Origin: Nitrospinales bacterium | Lineage (GTDB): Bacteria; Nitrospinota_A; UBA7883; JACRGQ01 | NCBI GenBank assembly: GCA_023248535.1 | Contig: JAHFEJ010000010.1 | Location: 1 to 55,707, forward strand | Reading direction: 5' to 3' | DNA length: 55,707 nt | In this document: one piece after another, positions 31,847 through 38,342 of the stretch | Layout: the number at the start of each line of letters is the position of its first letter | How positions within the stretch are numbered: the first letter of the stretch is position 1 | Notes under the pieces: generated by a model | Seen by the model: the letters and a program-made list of their open reading frames with translations, nothing else | Database searches by the model: none | What the model was told of the DNA's origin: nothing | Program-made: the position numbers and the translations under genes

Positions 31847-32214
31847 TCGCCAGGCCCCTGCGCCACCTTAACCTTGACGGCCGTCATGGGGTCTTTAGCA
31901 TTTTCCTGCCGATACCGCACCCGTATGATGCTCCCTTTCCTGATCGACGAAAGTGACGTTCTCGAATCGTGCCAGTCATAAAAGGCCGTTCCTGAAGTAA
32001 CAATAAACGTGTGGCCCGATGCCACGAAACCGTCGGTGAGTTCCTTCTCGAAAATAAGTTCGAAGAAGCCGGATGTCCCCTCATCGCTTTCCGCCGGCGC
32101 CTGTTGTTGCACCGGTGACGATTTTGACGCTGCAAAGGAAACGCCCGTGAAGAGCGCGGTGGAACAGCACATGACCGCGATCATTGCCACAAAAATTGCC
32201 CGTTGACCGTTCAT
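31843..32214 (-). CDS. Small secreted protein in the pilus operon, unknown function
   Basis: 123 residues from ATG 32214, chosen because GGAGGG lies 5 bases upstream; a GTG at 32226 would sit in the ribosome site. Signal peptide FVAMIAVMCCSTALFTGVSFAA, then a mature part of about 95 residues with FELIFEKELTDGFVASGHTF and a small beta-rich end (GSIIRVRYRQENAKDPMTAVKV). Not a family I recognise. Its ATG overlaps the pilY1 stop (ATGA), so it is translated with PilY1. It might be a PilY1 partner or an OB-like periplasmic protein. Confidence 0.7.
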   Translation of the reverse strand: MNGQRAIFVAMIAVMCCSTALFTGVSFAASKSSPVQQQAPAESDEGTSGFFELIFEKELTDGFVASGHTFIVTSGTAFYDWHDSRTSLSSIRKGSIIRVRYRQENAKDPMTAVKVKVAQGPGE

Positions 32215-35200
32215 AATTCCCTCCACGCGATAATGCCGCTCTTGAGGTCCGAAGCGGTGTTGACGTTAATAACACTGGCTTGTCCCGTGCTCATCTGAAC
32301 ATAAGCCTTCGCGCCGGCTTCCCGCCCCGCATGTATCGCGATGCTGGATGCCATACCTACGCTGGAGGTAAGGCTCTTGCGCAATACAGTGGTGCCGCTT
32401 ACGCCGATCACTTGACTGGAGTTCGCACTGCCGGTTTCGTAATAAGTAGCATAAAACCAGCTGTTACCGCCCAATGCGCAAACATCGGCTTCGGGCACAA
32501 AGGTGGCGAAAAGCACAATGCCCCCGATCACAGTCGGCTTGTTCAAGGAGCGTTCGCGGGCAAGGGAGAAGTTCATGAACCACCCGTCTTTGGTGGCAAC
32601 GAGGCTTTTCAAGGCATTAAAGGTGGCGGCGCCGGTTACGCCGGTCACCGTATTCGCCGAGTCGGTGGCCACCACGGCGTTGGTGGTATCCACCAGGGTC
32701 GCCGAGGTGATTGCGGGAGTATAACTGCCCGCGGTATTCAGTGAACCCCATTTAGCGCATGTGGGGTTCCACGCGGCGGTGCTCCCCACCCAGCAGGGAT
32801 CTTTGATACCGTAAAAGGCCTGCTGGCTGGTGTCGGTTTTGTCCGCCGCATTGAGATATTTTCCCGTACCGAAAAATAGCCATAAATTTTTGCTGGAATC
32901 GGTTGAGGCCGCCGGGGCCGAGGTGATGTATTGCCCGGCCGGGTTGTCGTAAAAGTCATACATCTTCCAGTTGGCTGGATTGGTGTCGTTGCCGGCGGCA
33001 GTCGGATTGGTTATAAGGCGCCACATCCGCGAGTACCATATTCCGCCGGCGGTCTTGTAGGTCTCCCCTACATAGACGGCATCAGTGTTATAGCCCGTTC
33101 CGCCTGAGCCCCCAACCACCGGATTGGTGTTGGTGAAATCAATATCCACCGATATCGGGTCGGAGAAAAACGAGTTGGGATCGCTGATCGGGAAAGATGC
33201 CATTTTGGCGCCCGTTTTTATATTGATGACGAACAGGGTGGCGGTCTGGCTGGACGTGCCGTCATACAGCGGGGTGTAGGCGGCTTTCGGGCCGGTGCCG
33301 ACAACCGCGAAAAACTCGTCGCCGACTTTAACCACCGCCGGATAGGTCATGGCGAAGCCCAGCGTATTATCGCCCGGATTCCACTCCCACAGCGGCACCG
33401 GCACCGCGGGATCGGTTACGTCGACCGCAAAAAACGAAGAGCGCCATTTGCGCAGGTTCGCGGCCGCATCGCCATTTCCATCCACATCGTAGGAGGTATC
33501 GGTTATTTCGCCGCCGCCAAAGCGCATACCGCCGATCAATACCGTTTTCCAGTTGGGGGCCGCGGAGGTGCCGAAATTGATATCGCTTGTTTTCACTTTC
33601 ATGTCCACGTAATCGACATGCGGATATGAATTGTCAGTGAGCCATTTCAAGTGCGGCAGCAGGTTGTATGGTATATAGTCCCACACCTCATTGCCTGTGG
33701 TGGCATCGAAAGCGTGCAACATGCCGTCGTTGGCGCCGATATACACCATCGTTGTCCTGTTCTTTTGCGAATTGTACCAGGTTTGGTAACCGGCATCCTG
33801 ATAAAGGGCGCCGTAACTCTCTTGCGGCGCCCCCACCACCGTCGGCGTTGAGTGAATGATGTCGCCCAGCTTGTATTGATCGCCGCCGACATTGATGGTG
33901 CGGTCACGGTAACCGGCGACGGCGTTTCCACGCATCCAGTTGATCACGTTCGTCGCCTCCGCAACGGAAGAGGTGCGGAGGTACTTTTGCAGCGTAGCGG
34001 CATTCGCCGTGGTAAAATCCAGCTTCTCCCCGGCATCCACAACGCCGTTCTTGTTGACATCCACGAAGGTGAATATGTTGCGCGACGCGGCGGTTTTGGT
34101 GGTCAGCAATTCGCCCGCATCCCAATTGTAGTTGACGAAATTGGTGAGCGGCGTGGTGGCCGTGACGGTGGTTCCGCAATTGTTCACCGATCCGCTCAGC
34201 GTGTTAATGACCGTTTCATTGGCGACGGTATCGAAAGTGAAGCTGATGCAATTGTTATTCTTGTCGAGCAGCGAACCTTTGCTGTCGATCTTCAGCGAAA
34301 GAAGGTGGCCGATCCAGGTGATATCGCGCGAGCCGAGCGCATCGACAATGGTTTTGGACGGAAGGAAATACGCCTGGAATATATTCCCCGCGCCGCTGGC
34401 CGAAGTGGCGAGAACCGAAATGGCGGTACCGGACGATGCACGCTTGAGGATGTCGGTGAACGCGGCCATGATTTGGCTTTCCATTTCCTCCGCGCTATCA
34501 GCCGGGAAATAATTGTCCGCCTGCGGGGTGCCGTCCGGCAACGTTTTGGTCGTAGTGTGCCATTCACTCAAAAGATCGGGCGTATTGCTGCCGTTGGAGT
34601 CTATAAAACCGCCATTCTTGGCGGTATTGTTAAGGAGCGTTCTTCCCGCGGCGGTGGTGCCGAAAGTATAGACCGTATATATCGTCAGCACCTGTTTGCT
34701 GGCGATGTCGGCACGCAGGTCGGTGGTATGGGCGGTAAGCGCCACGGCGTCAAGCGTTCTTAAGCCTGCCGCCGGTATTACTGCCGGGGCCATATCGGAA
34801 AAATCGTCATCGGTCGGTTCGCCGTCTGTGATGATGATCACATAATTCTTGCCACAAGGAACCTTCATATTGGCATCACTGTAAAACAACGGGTCACCGG
34901 CGGTGCCATTGCCCACAAAATACCAGGCGGCTCCTACCCGCTTGGTGGCATCCTGCTGAAAGTAGCCCATTATTTCCCACAGCGTTTCGGCCAGAGGCGT
35001 CGCTGTTTTCGGGTTGGAATTGATTTCATAATTGCTGATGAATGTGGAGCTGTAGCCCGTTGCGGCGGTCTGCCCGATCGGCTCCACCACCTTACCGCCC
35101 GCCGCATTCGTCTCGAAGAACGTAAGGCCGAACCGGGCCTTGGTCGATATTTTTTGCACAATACCGGCCACGTCATTACTGACGAAGTCGTATGGTTCCT

Positions 35201-36344
35201 GGGCAACCTCCTTACGCACATAGACGCAGTATTTGTAGGTCACCGTTGTTGCGGAAACGCTGGTTGTAGTTCCGGTCAGGGTTAAATAGTATCCGGTGCC
35301 GGCGGCGGAAATGCTGATGGACGTAACGCCGCCTGTGCCGTTAACCGTCCCGACGGTGACGGTGGCGTCCCCGTTCCCGCCCGTAACGGAAAGAATGTCG
35401 CCGACAGTATAATTCGTTCCCGCGGTATTGACCGCGGCCGCGGTAACATTACCGCTGCTTGTGGTGAGTTTAAGGGTGCCAGTGGCATATCCCGTGCCGC
35501 CAGCGGTGATGGTCACGCCGGTAACACTTCCGCCAGCGCCTATCGACGAAACGGTGACGATGGCATTTCCCCCACCGCCCGAAATTTTAAGTTGATTCCC
35601 AACCACATATCCCGTGCCGGCGGCGCCGATCCCGGTAATGGCGGTAACCACGCCGGCGGTCGCGGTGATGTTCAGCTTGCATCCTGAGCCGGTACCGGTA
35701 ATGTTCAGTTTGCATCCTGAACCTATCGTTATTTTTTGTTTGACGACTTTCATGGTGGGACATGTTGGCCCTGCCGCGCCGGAAACAAAATCGCTAAGGA
35801 TGGAATACGTGTATTTATATGCCGCATCCGGGTTGAGGGGAGTGGTTAATGCCGGCAGCGTTGCCGTGAGGGTTATATGGGTTTGGGTGGATGCATAATC
35901 GCCACCTGCCGGTTGATGCGCTTTAATGGCCTGAAGACCTGCCACGGCGGGCCGCGAGACGGCAAGCCCCCCTACCAGCACTTTGCGGGCGATATCTATT
36001 TTGCGCATGGTGGCCCAGTTAAGAAAACTCCCCAACCAAACCCCGGCGGGGTCTATGACCCATTTGGGGTTTGCGGGATCTGTTGTGTTGTCATATGTAT
36101 AGTGAAGCGTTGGCGAAAAATAACCGCTATAAGAGGTGGCGCTGGCATAAGTCGCCGTGTACCCGAATTCGTTCATCGAGCCGGAGTTGTCCGCCAAAAT
36201 CATGATGTTCGGCAGAACGCTGTTGCTCATGAAAAACGGGGAATCGGCATACTCGGCCATCGTTTCAACGGCGGATGCGGACCGGGAAACGGCCAACACC
36301 ATCAAGGCAGCACAAAAAAAACGGGAAACATCCTTTATAAACAT
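32211..36344 (-). CDS. pilY1: PilY1-type pilus-tip adhesin with inserted repeats
   Basis: 1377 residues from ATG 36344 (AAGGTGG upstream; ATG 36365 is possible). Signal peptide, then a von Willebrand A-like domain with MIDAS DNSGS at Asp52 (ILADNSGSMNEFG) and IIITDGEPTDDDF. The C-terminal third is the PilY1 beta-propeller: GANDGMLHAFDATTGNEVWDY, KLGDIIHSTP, LFFGTGKYL. PilY1 sits at the tip of type IV pili and acts in adhesion, surface sensing and pilus extension. Inside the VWA region (about 35235-35740) lies a glycine-rich array of repeats related to GTGYxVGDxLxVxGG, plus a 33-base tandem duplication encoding GSGCKLNITGT. The insert is unusual. Confidence 0.93.
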   Translation of the reverse strand: MFIKDVSRFFCAALMVLAVSRSASAVETMAEYADSPFFMSNSVLPNIMILADNSGSMNEFGYTATYASATSYSGYFSPTLHYTYDNTTDPANPKWVIDPAGVWLGSFLNWATMRKIDIARKVLVGGLAVSRPAVAGLQAIKAHQPAGGDYASTQTHITLTATLPALTTPLNPDAAYKYTYSILSDFVSGAAGPTCPTMKVVKQKITIGSGCKLNITGTGSGCKLNITATAGVVTAITGIGAAGTGYVVGNQLKISGGGGNAIVTVSSIGAGGSVTGVTITAGGTGYATGTLKLTTSSGNVTAAAVNTAGTNYTVGDILSVTGGNGDATVTVGTVNGTGGVTSISISAAGTGYYLTLTGTTTSVSATTVTYKYCVYVRKEVAQEPYDFVSNDVAGIVQKISTKARFGLTFFETNAAGGKVVEPIGQTAATGYSSTFISNYEINSNPKTATPLAETLWEIMGYFQQDATKRVGAAWYFVGNGTAGDPLFYSDANMKVPCGKNYVIIITDGEPTDDDFSDMAPAVIPAAGLRTLDAVALTAHTTDLRADIASKQVLTIYTVYTFGTTAAGRTLLNNTAKNGGFIDSNGSNTPDLLSEWHTTTKTLPDGTPQADNYFPADSAEEMESQIMAAFTDILKRASSGTAISVLATSASGAGNIFQAYFLPSKTIVDALGSRDITWIGHLLSLKIDSKGSLLDKNNNCISFTFDTVANETVINTLSGSVNNCGTTVTATTPLTNFVNYNWDAGELLTTKTAASRNIFTFVDVNKNGVVDAGEKLDFTTANAATLQKYLRTSSVAEATNVINWMRGNAVAGYRDRTINVGGDQYKLGDIIHSTPTVVGAPQESYGALYQDAGYQTWYNSQKNRTTMVYIGANDGMLHAFDATTGNEVWDYIPYNLLPHLKWLTDNSYPHVDYVDMKVKTSDINFGTSAAPNWKTVLIGGMRFGGGEITDTSYDVDGNGDAAANLRKWRSSFFAVDVTDPAVPVPLWEWNPGDNTLGFAMTYPAVVKVGDEFFAVVGTGPKAAYTPLYDGTSSQTATLFVINIKTGAKMASFPISDPNSFFSDPISVDIDFTNTNPVVGGSGGTGYNTDAVYVGETYKTAGGIWYSRMWRLITNPTAAGNDTNPANWKMYDFYDNPAGQYITSAPAASTDSSKNLWLFFGTGKYLNAADKTDTSQQAFYGIKDPCWVGSTAAWNPTCAKWGSLNTAGSYTPAITSATLVDTTNAVVATDSANTVTGVTGAATFNALKSLVATKDGWFMNFSLARERSLNKPTVIGGIVLFATFVPEADVCALGGNSWFYATYYETGSANSSQVIGVSGTTVLRKSLTSSVGMASSIAIHAGREAGAKAYVQMSTGQASVINVNTASDLKSGIIAWREL

Positions 36345-36946
36345 CTGCCACCACCTTCTATACATTTGTAAGTTGCACGCACTGTTTTATCAGTATCGCC
36401 AATTGTAGTTTTTGAGTCGATCTGATAAAGCAGGCTAACGCTGCCCGATGTGCCGCTGCCTATACCTTCATAGCGGGCCGCGAACTCTGTTGACGAGCCG
36501 GGCGTCAGCTTGCTGCGTAAAAAGTCGATGTCGATTTTTGCGGTGTCGCCCATGATCGTCACGGTGGCGTTTGGGTTGGCGGTGGTATCCGGATTCAAGC
36601 CCGTGGCGCTGTTACCGTTCACGCCGGCGATCTCCCGCTCAAAATCGGTTTGGGTGCCGCCACCGGTGTTGGTGGTATTGACGTAGCTAAGATACGTGGC
36701 GGAGACGGTGTTCTTGTTGCCGATGGTGTCCCTGATAAGGCCGCTGGCAAATTCGATGCCGCCATCGGAAACATAGACGGTCTGCTGTTGCGTTTTGTAT
36801 TTACCGCTGATCCGCAACCCCTGGGTGGCGCTCATGATGGCGACGGTCGAGAAAACGGCCAGCACCATCATCACCAGCAGGGCAAGGATAAGCGCCGTCC
36901 CCCGCTCGTCCGCGGCGGGCACATACATCCGTTTCATGATACTCAT
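36335..36946 (-). CDS. pilX: PilX-like pilus assembly protein
   Basis: 203 residues from ATG 36946, which has AAGGAG 6 bases upstream. The PilX N-terminal module is clear: DERGTALILALLVMMVLAVFSTVAIMSATQG, split as RGTALILALLVMMVL and FSTVAIMSA, with no prepilin-type Gly-Phe-x-x-x-Glu site, as usual for this family. The body has few recognisable motifs. It functions with PilV, PilW and PilY1 as a minor-pilin priming complex. It overlaps pilY1 by 10 bases and pilW by one base. Confidence 0.85.
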   Translation of the reverse strand: MSIMKRMYVPAADERGTALILALLVMMVLAVFSTVAIMSATQGLRISGKYKTQQQTVYVSDGGIEFASGLIRDTIGNKNTVSATYLSYVNTTNTGGGTQTDFEREIAGVNGNSATGLNPDTTANPNATVTIMGDTAKIDIDFLRSKLTPGSSTEFAARYEGIGSGTSGSVSLLYQIDSKTTIGDTDKTVRATYKCIEGGGRCL

Positions 36947-37749
36947 CACTTGCTCCTTAAAACCACGCTGGTGGAAAAAATCTGAACCACGTTTTGCTTG
37001 GTAAGGTCGTGTGCCGTGCGCGTTTTGGCAAGAATGTATATCGTTACTCCCACCACATCGCTATAGTTGCGGCCGGAAACCGAGTTGTCCGGCAGTAAGG
37101 CCGTCGGCACACCGGCGGCGCCGCCGCACTTCAATGTGATCGAGGCCGCGCCGGGCGCGGCGGTCGCGGTAGCGCCGCCGGCCGCGCCGCACATGCTGTC
37201 TGTGAAGGCGTAGGCGCCGAAGCTGCCGGTTCTGAAATGGTAAATAAAGACGAGGTCTTGTATATCGGGATACTTTGGCGTCCACCCGCTTATGGCCCCG
37301 GTGGCCGGATCGATCAACGCCATCTCGATGCAGCTTGAATTGGCTGCCGAAGGATTGCAATTAGCCCCCGTAAACCGGAACGCGACCTTCTCATTACTGT
37401 TCATCGCCAGGTTGCCATCCGCATTGTCATCCATCGTGAAAAAGATCGATTTCGCGTCGGTCATCGCGTTCGTGGTGAAGCCGCCGGTGCTGTCTTTCAG
37501 CCCAAAAGTGCCGCTGGCCGCTTGGGTGGGGTTATACCCTATCTCGCGCACGAGGCGCGAAAGCCCCCCTATGGCGTTGCGGCCCGTGGTGACCATACCG
37601 GTCACTTTCTTCTCGCCGGAAAAGAGCTGGCTGTTCGACTGGAATATTTTCATGATCACAAGCCCGATGACCGAGCCGATGGCGACCGCCATTAATATCT
37701 CGACCAACGTCATCCCGGCGCGGCTGCGCAGCAGTGCTTTCATGGTCAT
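36946..37749 (-). CDS. pilW: PilW-like minor pilin
   Basis: 267 residues from ATG 37749. The short leader MTMKALLRSRAG is followed by a type III signal, AG/MTLVEILMAVAIGSV, cut by PilD before Met; glutamate +5 is present. A PilW-like body follows (GRNAIGGLSRLVREIGYNPT). Its ATG overlaps the pilV stop by 4 bases (ATGA). It is a minor pilin of the tip complex. Confidence 0.88.
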   Translation of the reverse strand: MTMKALLRSRAGMTLVEILMAVAIGSVIGLVIMKIFQSNSQLFSGEKKVTGMVTTGRNAIGGLSRLVREIGYNPTQAASGTFGLKDSTGGFTTNAMTDAKSIFFTMDDNADGNLAMNSNEKVAFRFTGANCNPSAANSSCIEMALIDPATGAISGWTPKYPDIQDLVFIYHFRTGSFGAYAFTDSMCGAAGGATATAAPGAASITLKCGGAAGVPTALLPDNSVSGRNYSDVVGVTIYILAKTRTAHDLTKQNVVQIFSTSVVLRSK

Positions 37750-38342
37750 TGCCCCTGCATCGCGGTGCTTACCACCGCGTAATTTTGTGCCGTTCCCTCC
37801 AGCCAGCCAACGACCACCGTGACGGTCTTCATCCCGGCTATCGGCAGATTGTCGCGCACAACCCATGCGGCTTGTGGCGTGGAGCTTAACACCAGCGGAA
37901 TCGCGCTGCCGTTTTGCGTATAATCCGGGTTGGCGAACATGGCCGCCGGATCGGTCAACGCATCATTTCCGGTGTAGGTGTTTACAAGCTGGGCGGGAAT
38001 AACATCGTCGGCGGTTCCAAGAACCATGTCGGCTCCGAGATTAAAGCCCCCCATAGACCGTATGATCTCGACCTGTTCCTGCGCCAAAGCGCTTGCCTGA
38101 ACAAATTTGTTGCTGTGCTTGTTCCCACCGATAATGGTAAAGGAAATTCCGGAAAGCGCCACCAGCGCTATTGAAAAAACAACGGATGCAACCAACACCT
38201 CAAGGATCGTGAAGCCCGCTTGCCCAGTTGATCGTATCAGGCAGAACATGTTTCTCACTGTAACCACCCGGAGTAAACGGTTATCGGCCACATCTTCCTT
38301 AGTATGGTTTCTCATTATAGCCATAGGGTTACACATTTTCAT
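37746..38342 (-). CDS. pilV: PilV-like minor pilin
   Basis: Up to 198 residues. The type IV prepilin site G/FTILEVLVASVVFSIALVAL is clear, with Glu+5, followed by the PilV-like QEQVEIIRSMGG. The leader length is unsure: the frame opens at 38342 with AGGTAA near, giving a 43-residue leader, while ATG 38249 would leave only 12 residues, as is typical. It is the first gene of pilV-pilW-pilX-pilY1. No FimT or PilE gene is in the cluster. Confidence 0.86.
   Translation of the reverse strand: MKMCNPMAIMRNHTKEDVADNRLLRVVTVRNMFCLIRSTGQAGFTILEVLVASVVFSIALVALSGISFTIIGGNKHSNKFVQASALAQEQVEIIRSMGGFNLGADMVLGTADDVIPAQLVNTYTGNDALTDPAAMFANPDYTQNGSAIPLVLSSTPQAAWVVRDNLPIAGMKTVTVVVGWLEGTAQNYAVVSTAMQGQ

Follow-up and report, generated by a model that had tools for sequence, protein, structure and literature searches.

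Type IV pili carry PilY1 as their tip adhesin; the protein is also a proposed force sensor and is variable in its N-terminal half. Adhesive and mechanosensing roles have been assigned to this variable N-terminal part (PMC9109919, PMC11891296, PMC9210963; here and below, PMC numbers refer to the available portions of those papers), and the DxSxS motif of its VWA region is named in one of these studies (PMC9210963). In Streptococcus sanguinis, lectin or VWA domains grafted onto pilins adapt type IV pilus adhesion (PMC9109919). Small beta additions are also described in phages, whose virion proteins carry Ig-like accessory domains that have been proposed to make weak contact with the cell surface (PMC9230969). 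In the tail sheath protein gp18 of phage T4, domain I (residues 98-188) is a six-stranded barrel with a helix that is inserted into domain II (PMC3004832). This domain protrudes, lies outside the inter-subunit contacts and binds the retracted long tail fibres (PMC3004832).

The pilY1 gene discussed here lies in a window of 55,707 nucleotides, the whole stretch of DNA that was analysed, and is the sole PF05567 match in its source genome, G000 (2.87 Mb in 132 contigs). The gene and its neighbourhood are as follows.

32211..36365, minus strand: pilY1 coding sequence, an ORF of 1384 amino acids (PF05567, T4P_PilY1, 81.8 bits, cut-off 28.1)
32775..33869, minus strand: C-terminal PilY1 beta-propeller, residues 833-1197 (PF05567; 3HX6, PilY1 of P. 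aeruginosa, E 3.6e-29)
36177..36191, minus strand: DNSGS (residues 59-63), a DxSxS motif of the MIDAS type, where the putative VWA region starts (from the translation)
36335..36949, minus strand: PilX-like minor pilin (PilX_N E 5e-4, 20.4 bits, below the cut-off of 25.5)
36946..37866, minus strand: PilW-like minor pilin, named by gene order only (N_methyl E 2.8e-4, 20.8 bits, just below the cut-off of 21.2)
37746..38342, minus strand: PilV-like minor pilin, named by gene order only (N_methyl E 7.7e-6, 25.7 bits, over the cut-off of 21.2)

The protein has the marks of the PilY1 family: its propeller scores over the Pfam cut-off, and minor pilin genes adjoin it, the three genes upstream having pilin-type N-termini. 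No NCBIfam entry matched it at E ≤ 1. The VWA region gave no Pfam VWA match at E ≤ 1 either; DNSGS can be read at residues 59-63, where the relatives inspected also have DxSxS.

A glycine-rich array in this VWA region had been noticed at 35235-35740 in the original prediction. The array is real, and we place it at 35262-35729, with ends set by eye and accurate to a few residues. Three profiles were used to describe it. Profile A1 has 10 rows, all from the bacterial family of the window, and profile A5 has 9 rows from that family, 8 viral rows and 1 from a MAG. Since A1 and A5 include modules of the family and are biased to that extent, profile A7 was built separately: 15 of its rows are viral and one comes from a Chloroflexi MAG contig of 5 kb (L082), so that it is phage-type and not strictly phage-only. 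The parts of the insert are as follows.

35262..35729, minus strand: whole insert, residues ~213-368, in the hairpin loop between KVVKQKI and TVTYKYCVYVRKE (empty-site alignment, 10 homologues)
35691..35723, minus strand: copy 1 of a 33-bp duplication (GSGCKLNITGT), supplying an additional first strand (219-223 in the model)
35658..35690, minus strand: copy 2 of the 33-bp duplication (GSGCKLNITAT), the first strand of module A
35493..35690, minus strand: module A, residues 226-291 (phage-type profile A7, E 3.7e-12)
35295..35492, minus strand: module B, residues 292-357 (phage-type profile A7, E 7.7e-17)

The turns GTGY, GTGY, GTNY and GTGY occur at residues 250, 290, 316 and 356, in pairs that are 66 residues apart. 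Because of these four GxGY/GxNY turns, we read the insert as two modules of 66 residues with two turns each. The earlier proposal of three to four units was therefore right about repetition and not about the count, the two modules being more regular than independent units. At an offset of 66, the self-identity of the insert is 0.33, as against 0.133 +/- 0.035 in shuffled sequences, and the observed value was reached in 0 of 5000 shuffles. The modules align without gaps in this register, 23 of 66 residues being identical. The tandem copy of 33 bases encoding GSGCKLNITGT had also been predicted, and it stands: the two copies are identical at 28 of 33 positions, whereas the best identity of adjacent 33-mers was 24 when the codons of the gene were shuffled 500 times. 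A chance repeat is unlikely.

The insert is missing from the other PilY1 proteins compared. Ten homologues were aligned, nine from the family of the window (G001-G007, G009 and G010) and the more distant G044; the homologue from G007 is a fragment of 296 residues that covers the loop. Plain MAFFT with the insert in place scattered the loop residues of the relatives into the insert, and an empty-site alignment was used instead. Once residues 213-368 are removed, KVVKQKI and TVTYKYCVYVRKE on either side match both strands of the hairpin in the relatives, and none of the ten has the insert, including all three homologues from the same genus. PF05567 matches were found in 69 of 385 genomes, 50 of them over the cut-off, and only in G000 does the matching ORF also match the module. 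Within the family, G008, the eleventh genome, is without a PF05567 match, so that the insert is present in one of the ten genomes that have the gene. The block is almost certainly a loop insertion in PilY1. These results uphold the earlier view that the repeats are not part of standard PilY1, and close homologues do not share them throughout, which would have spoken for the opposite. They also bear on whether the block is a normal VWA loop: the alignment does place it in a hairpin loop, whose length differs among genera, and it shows the 156 residues as extra within that loop.

The same results could also point to a tolerated passenger, that is, to harmless self-folding beta modules that spread through the loops of exported proteins and have no adhesive role in PilY1. 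The insert is found in one of ten family genomes, and is missing in three homologues of the same genus, at a loop that varies in length anyway. This is the main rival to an adhesive role, and further evidence on it is given below.

Cys202 and Cys380 (35760-35762 and 35226-35228) flank the insert, and no cysteine stands opposite either of them in the ten relatives. Disulphides at the base of the insert, between these two residues and Cys218 and Cys229 in the duplicated strand, are conceivable, but this is a guess.

Several searches connect the modules with phage virion proteins. Against PHROGs, residues 231-297 of PilY1 match the head-closure family Hc2 (E 5.7e-5). Among viral structure models, the top match of the insert is the tail sheath protein of Sinorhizobium phage phiM9 (E 3.8e-5, rmsd 1.8 A, 68 columns, 43% identity), which is also the sole match at E ≤ 0.001; structural proteins of cyanophages and other phages come next, from E ~0.007 upwards. 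The module in the phiM9 sheath (51 bits) spans residues ~99-167 and comes after LRLLRV, which corresponds by eye to the LRVVRV ahead of domain I in T4-type sheaths. When profile A5, made of 18 modules, was compared with eight gp18 domain I sequences, hhalign gave 95.1% (E 3.2e-8) over 45 columns. A re-run gave 92.6%, whereas 200 column-shuffled profiles gave at most 2.2%. The narrower family profile A1 gave a weaker 82.4%. Eight of the 18 modules match PF22639 (Gp18_dom_I) at E ≤ 1, the best at 9.7e-5. A search of solved structures with A5 put the KP1 sheath first (E 0.0034), with T4-type gp18 entries at a weak 0.04-0.15. In VIA-align, the first four rows are sheath proteins, aligned over residues ~98-158 at low Z scores (2.7-3.7), an unrelated methyltransferase being next at 2.6; against 3FOA, Z is 3.5 and the rmsd 2.4 A over 50 residues. 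A search of named phages and plasmids with the insert by tblastn came back empty, perhaps because the low-complexity filter masked the query. Taken together with the best match of A7 over all genomes, which is the insert itself, these results support the likeness to phage proteins that had been suggested at the outset. The module is related, in a core of ~45 residues, to gp18 domain I and to add-on modules of other phage virion proteins, and it is very probably of the phage virion kind.

The insert is gp18-domain-I-like by this common core, and is not a member of Gp18_dom_I. It is not filed there because PF22639 does not match the insert at E up to 10 (nor module A alone at E ≤ 1), the VIA-align Z scores are low, Foldseek against the PDB found nothing at E ≤ 0.001 with either structural model, and the solved-structure search with A1 pointed to the tailspike Dpo31 (E 1.1e-4) and not to gp18. 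The Pfam family is described within tail sheath proteins, and the host here is PilY1. The cut-off of Gp18_dom_I (27 bits) was reached by no scanned module or module-bearing protein, so such inserts are easily missed; nearest was a protein of the window's family, L122, with 26.4 bits.

The profile comparison also bears on whether the insert is a chance G/T/V-rich sequence of low complexity or an assembly error. Its 156 residues do include 36 G, 33 T, 16 A and 16 V, Tandem Repeats Finder (score 30) reported nothing at the 33-bp copy or elsewhere in the insert, and the GC content is 59.2% as against 55.2% in the rest of pilY1. Composition would be retained in shuffled columns, yet the match to gp18 domain I is lost in them, so the order of the columns matters. 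As to assembly, the frame stays open across 468 bp within a 55.7-kb contig, and third-position GC is 64.1% in the insert and 67.6% in the rest of the gene. Either of these explanations is highly improbable.

The fold of the modules was predicted with two AlphaFold2 models. In model 1 (mean pLDDT 65) the insert was aligned with viral and MAG modules, and block means of pLDDT for module B are 80-87. Model 2 covers PilY1 residues 34-690. Its alignment is without PilY1 relatives because no PilY1 was confirmed in viral contigs; its mean pLDDT is 46, and most of the protein outside the modules is unmodelled. In this model, module B is again well predicted, with block means of 84-94 (residues 294-353), and module A has block means of 62-83 (residues 234-293), which is moderate confidence only. 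The strands predicted for module A are 230-236, 239-247, 258-263, 266-275 and 281-287, and those for module B are 297-303, 306-314, 324-327, 334-341 and 347-354. Both modules are thus predicted to be all-beta with five strands each, and neither has a helix or a sixth strand.

How the modules are distributed was surveyed in 385 genomes, 11 from the family of the window and 374 others chosen as a spread. With A1 at E ≤ 0.001, six of the 385 genomes had matches, all among the 11. A5 at E ≤ 0.01 matched ten, namely seven of the 11 (G002 at E 0.0014 only) and three of the 374 (E 0.003 or worse). With A7, 11 genomes matched, six of the 11 and five of the 374, the latter at E 7.6e-4 or worse; the Fisher p of 4.6e-8, and that of 8.9e-7 without G000 (5/10 versus 5/374), are too small because the genomes are treated as independent while relatives are not. 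The best A7 match in the entire set is module B of the PilY1 in the window. The modules are therefore present in six to seven of the 11 family genomes, and weakly in at most five of the 374 others.

The proteins that carry the module vary. The viral scan covered eight module-bearing viral host proteins, and some phage proteins have up to five modules. PHROG 460 (Hc2), 6005, 9703 and 438 are the families matched by most modules. An Hc3-type neck protein (L072) contains the module, as do two proteins with matches to Hc3 and to an amidase family (L077 and L096), a protein of a virion structural family (L063), a baseplate wedge protein resembling gp6 (L067) and a sheath-like protein (L084; Gp18_domIII_N 18.4 bits, below the cut-off). 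L059 matches no family, and L062 and L116 are matched only around the module. In the bacterial family, the hosts other than the tail-fibre-like protein described below have a signal or lipobox-like start in all six cases in which the N-terminus is visible (by eye). In G001, the module lies within the last rhodanese domain of a lipoprotein; the empty-site homologue in G002 is identical at 151 of 261 residues without the module, and ~16 adjoining residues are also unmatched. G005 has three modules in an NHL-repeat protein, and both G005 and G010 have modules in large lipoproteins with Fn3-like segments (by eye; Pfam fn3 E 0.24 in the G005 protein). G007 and G008 have them in small lipoproteins. 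PHROGs at E ≤ 0.01 matched none of the module-bearing bacterial proteins L033, L122 and L123. That modules of the same kind sit in functionally unrelated proteins is a further point in favor of a passenger.

In G000 itself the module is also found in a protein of 320 residues (L036 5930-6892), called tail-fibre-like because its G011 homologue adjoins a lysozyme-like ORF (by eye). The G011 homologue is an empty site, identical at 75 of 214 residues, and the PHROGs match of the L036 protein is confined to the module. With empty sites known for both this protein and the rhodanese lipoprotein, the module looks portable, a point for the explanation favored below. Prophage origin was considered for this third G000 copy and rejected: the gene lies amid genes for ATP synthase, a ribosomal protein and others (by eye) on a 14-kb contig, with no prophage visible. 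It is just downstream of a lipoprotein gene with RCC1-like repeats (L036 5930-9156, minus strand; by eye).

Some of the other host genes have features of their own. The 1206-residue lipoprotein of G005 (L122 2638-6255, minus strand) has six module matches among its Fn3-like segments. The rhodanese lipoprotein (L034 4038-6329, minus strand) has an Fn3 segment at residues ~300-395 (Pfam fn3, 27.4 bits), and it has at least 24 matches in G000 and at least 27 in G001, many spanning the Fn3 segment only. In a Rubrivivax MAG, an array of GSGYxxAP-type repeats lies inside a multicopper-oxidase-like protein (L080 2307-8042, plus strand; by eye). It is a further cellular protein bearing phage-like glycine-rich modules, and it shows that arrays of this type are not limited to the family of the window.

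The age of the spread was approached by comparing the codons of identical residues, the expectation for all genomes being taken from the codon usage of the PilY1 in the window. Between modules of different genes, agreement is mostly near or below expectation, the largest excesses being 15 versus 9.3 (NHL2 and the Fn3-like protein of G005) and 20 versus 14.7 (PilY1 module A and the G001 rhodanese protein). Within one gene, and between the lipoproteins of G007 and G008, copies clearly exceed expectation, with 43 versus 20.4 at the extreme. The two PilY1 modules are saturated, with 12 codons the same versus 10.0 expected. A recently mobile in-frame DNA element is rejected on the cross-gene values, in which no recent step of mobile DNA is visible. 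Because of this pattern, spread among genes looks old, or due to separate captures, the recent part being local duplication.

A phase- or strain-variable array that alters the length of the adhesin through slippage was also considered. The 33-bp imperfect tandem copy would suit such an array, and so would the related small lipoproteins (L035 4725-5585 and L018 1420-2088), in which module number differs between genera: G008 has one module, and G007 has no fewer than two complete ones plus the beginning of another, the contig ending within the gene. In PilY1, though, modules A and B are too diverged for frequent slippage, in residues as in codons, and only the 11-residue strand copy looks recent. 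Slippage is very unlikely as the explanation of the insert.

How then might the insert have arisen, and what might it do? Phage genes are the probable source of the modules, and these would then have spread long ago, or been captured repeatedly, within the bacterial family, local tandem duplication being more recent. In PilY1, each module would fold by itself and stand out from the hairpin, leaving the VWA core intact. The extra exposed surface at the pilus tip would add weak contacts or lengthen the adhesive head. The original prediction had likewise suggested that the repeats could extend the adhesin or alter binding, and this would remain the preferred view. The likeness to gp18 domain I is the reason that an exposed accessory surface is the best reading. 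The insert is thus most likely, by analogy, an exposed accessory knob that alters the contacts of the pilus tip; the cell, it seems, has equipped its gripping device with a decoration of phage type. Against a mere passenger are two points. Two modules with conserved turns have been kept in frame in spite of saturated codons, which suggests that the fold was retained, and gp18 of T4 uses its related, exposed domain for docking (PMC3004832). A passenger with no adhesive function is accordingly rather unlikely in our estimate, and an adhesive role may be given slightly better than an even chance. The explanation that we favor as a whole, and hold to be reasonably probable, is a phage-derived, two-module loop insertion that gives PilY1 an exposed accessory surface at the pilus tip. 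A broader version is tentative: the family would have domesticated a phage virion decoration as a part that can be grafted into loops, setting it several times into unrelated exported proteins, and it would give PilY1 a new surface for binding next to its VWA domain.

A phage-type module in the variable half of PilY1, with insert-free relatives at hand, amounts to a natural experiment on the gain of surface by an adhesin. The pattern across the family can likewise be tested as an instance of a virion accessory module turned into a reusable part of cellular proteins. Among the matches listed in a literature search of titles and abstract openings, in which subscription journals are thinly covered, no description of a phage module inside PilY1 was found.

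In comparison with known systems, the PilY1 of the window shares with that of P. aeruginosa (3HX6, C-terminal part) and with PilY1.3 of M. xanthus the propeller, a putative N-terminal VWA region with DxSxS and adjoining genes of pilin type. Such an insert is unmentioned for these proteins in the available portions of the papers on them (PMC9210963, PMC9109919, PMC11891296). In S. sanguinis, additions to the pilus are whole domains at the C terminus of minor pilins, whereas here the addition is a phage-type module in a loop of PilY1. The phage Ig-like domains are likewise small beta add-ons, but the only match of the module to Ig-like families is a weak one (BIg21, E 0.038, in 1 of 18 modules). 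The GxGY/VGD modules of phage virions are closer, although they often have GxGA or GxGL where PilY1 has GxGC (by eye). With gp18 domain I (PF22639; 3FO8, 3FOA), the insert has in common the 45-column core, which runs strand, GSxY, VGDxIxV, strand, GxIxxI. In T4 too this is an exposed domain set within another domain, and the phiM9 module sits at about that place (by eye). Unlike gp18 domain I, the module of the insert has 66 residues and not 91, comes as a tandem pair, has five strands and no helix in the model, and resides in a bacterial adhesin.
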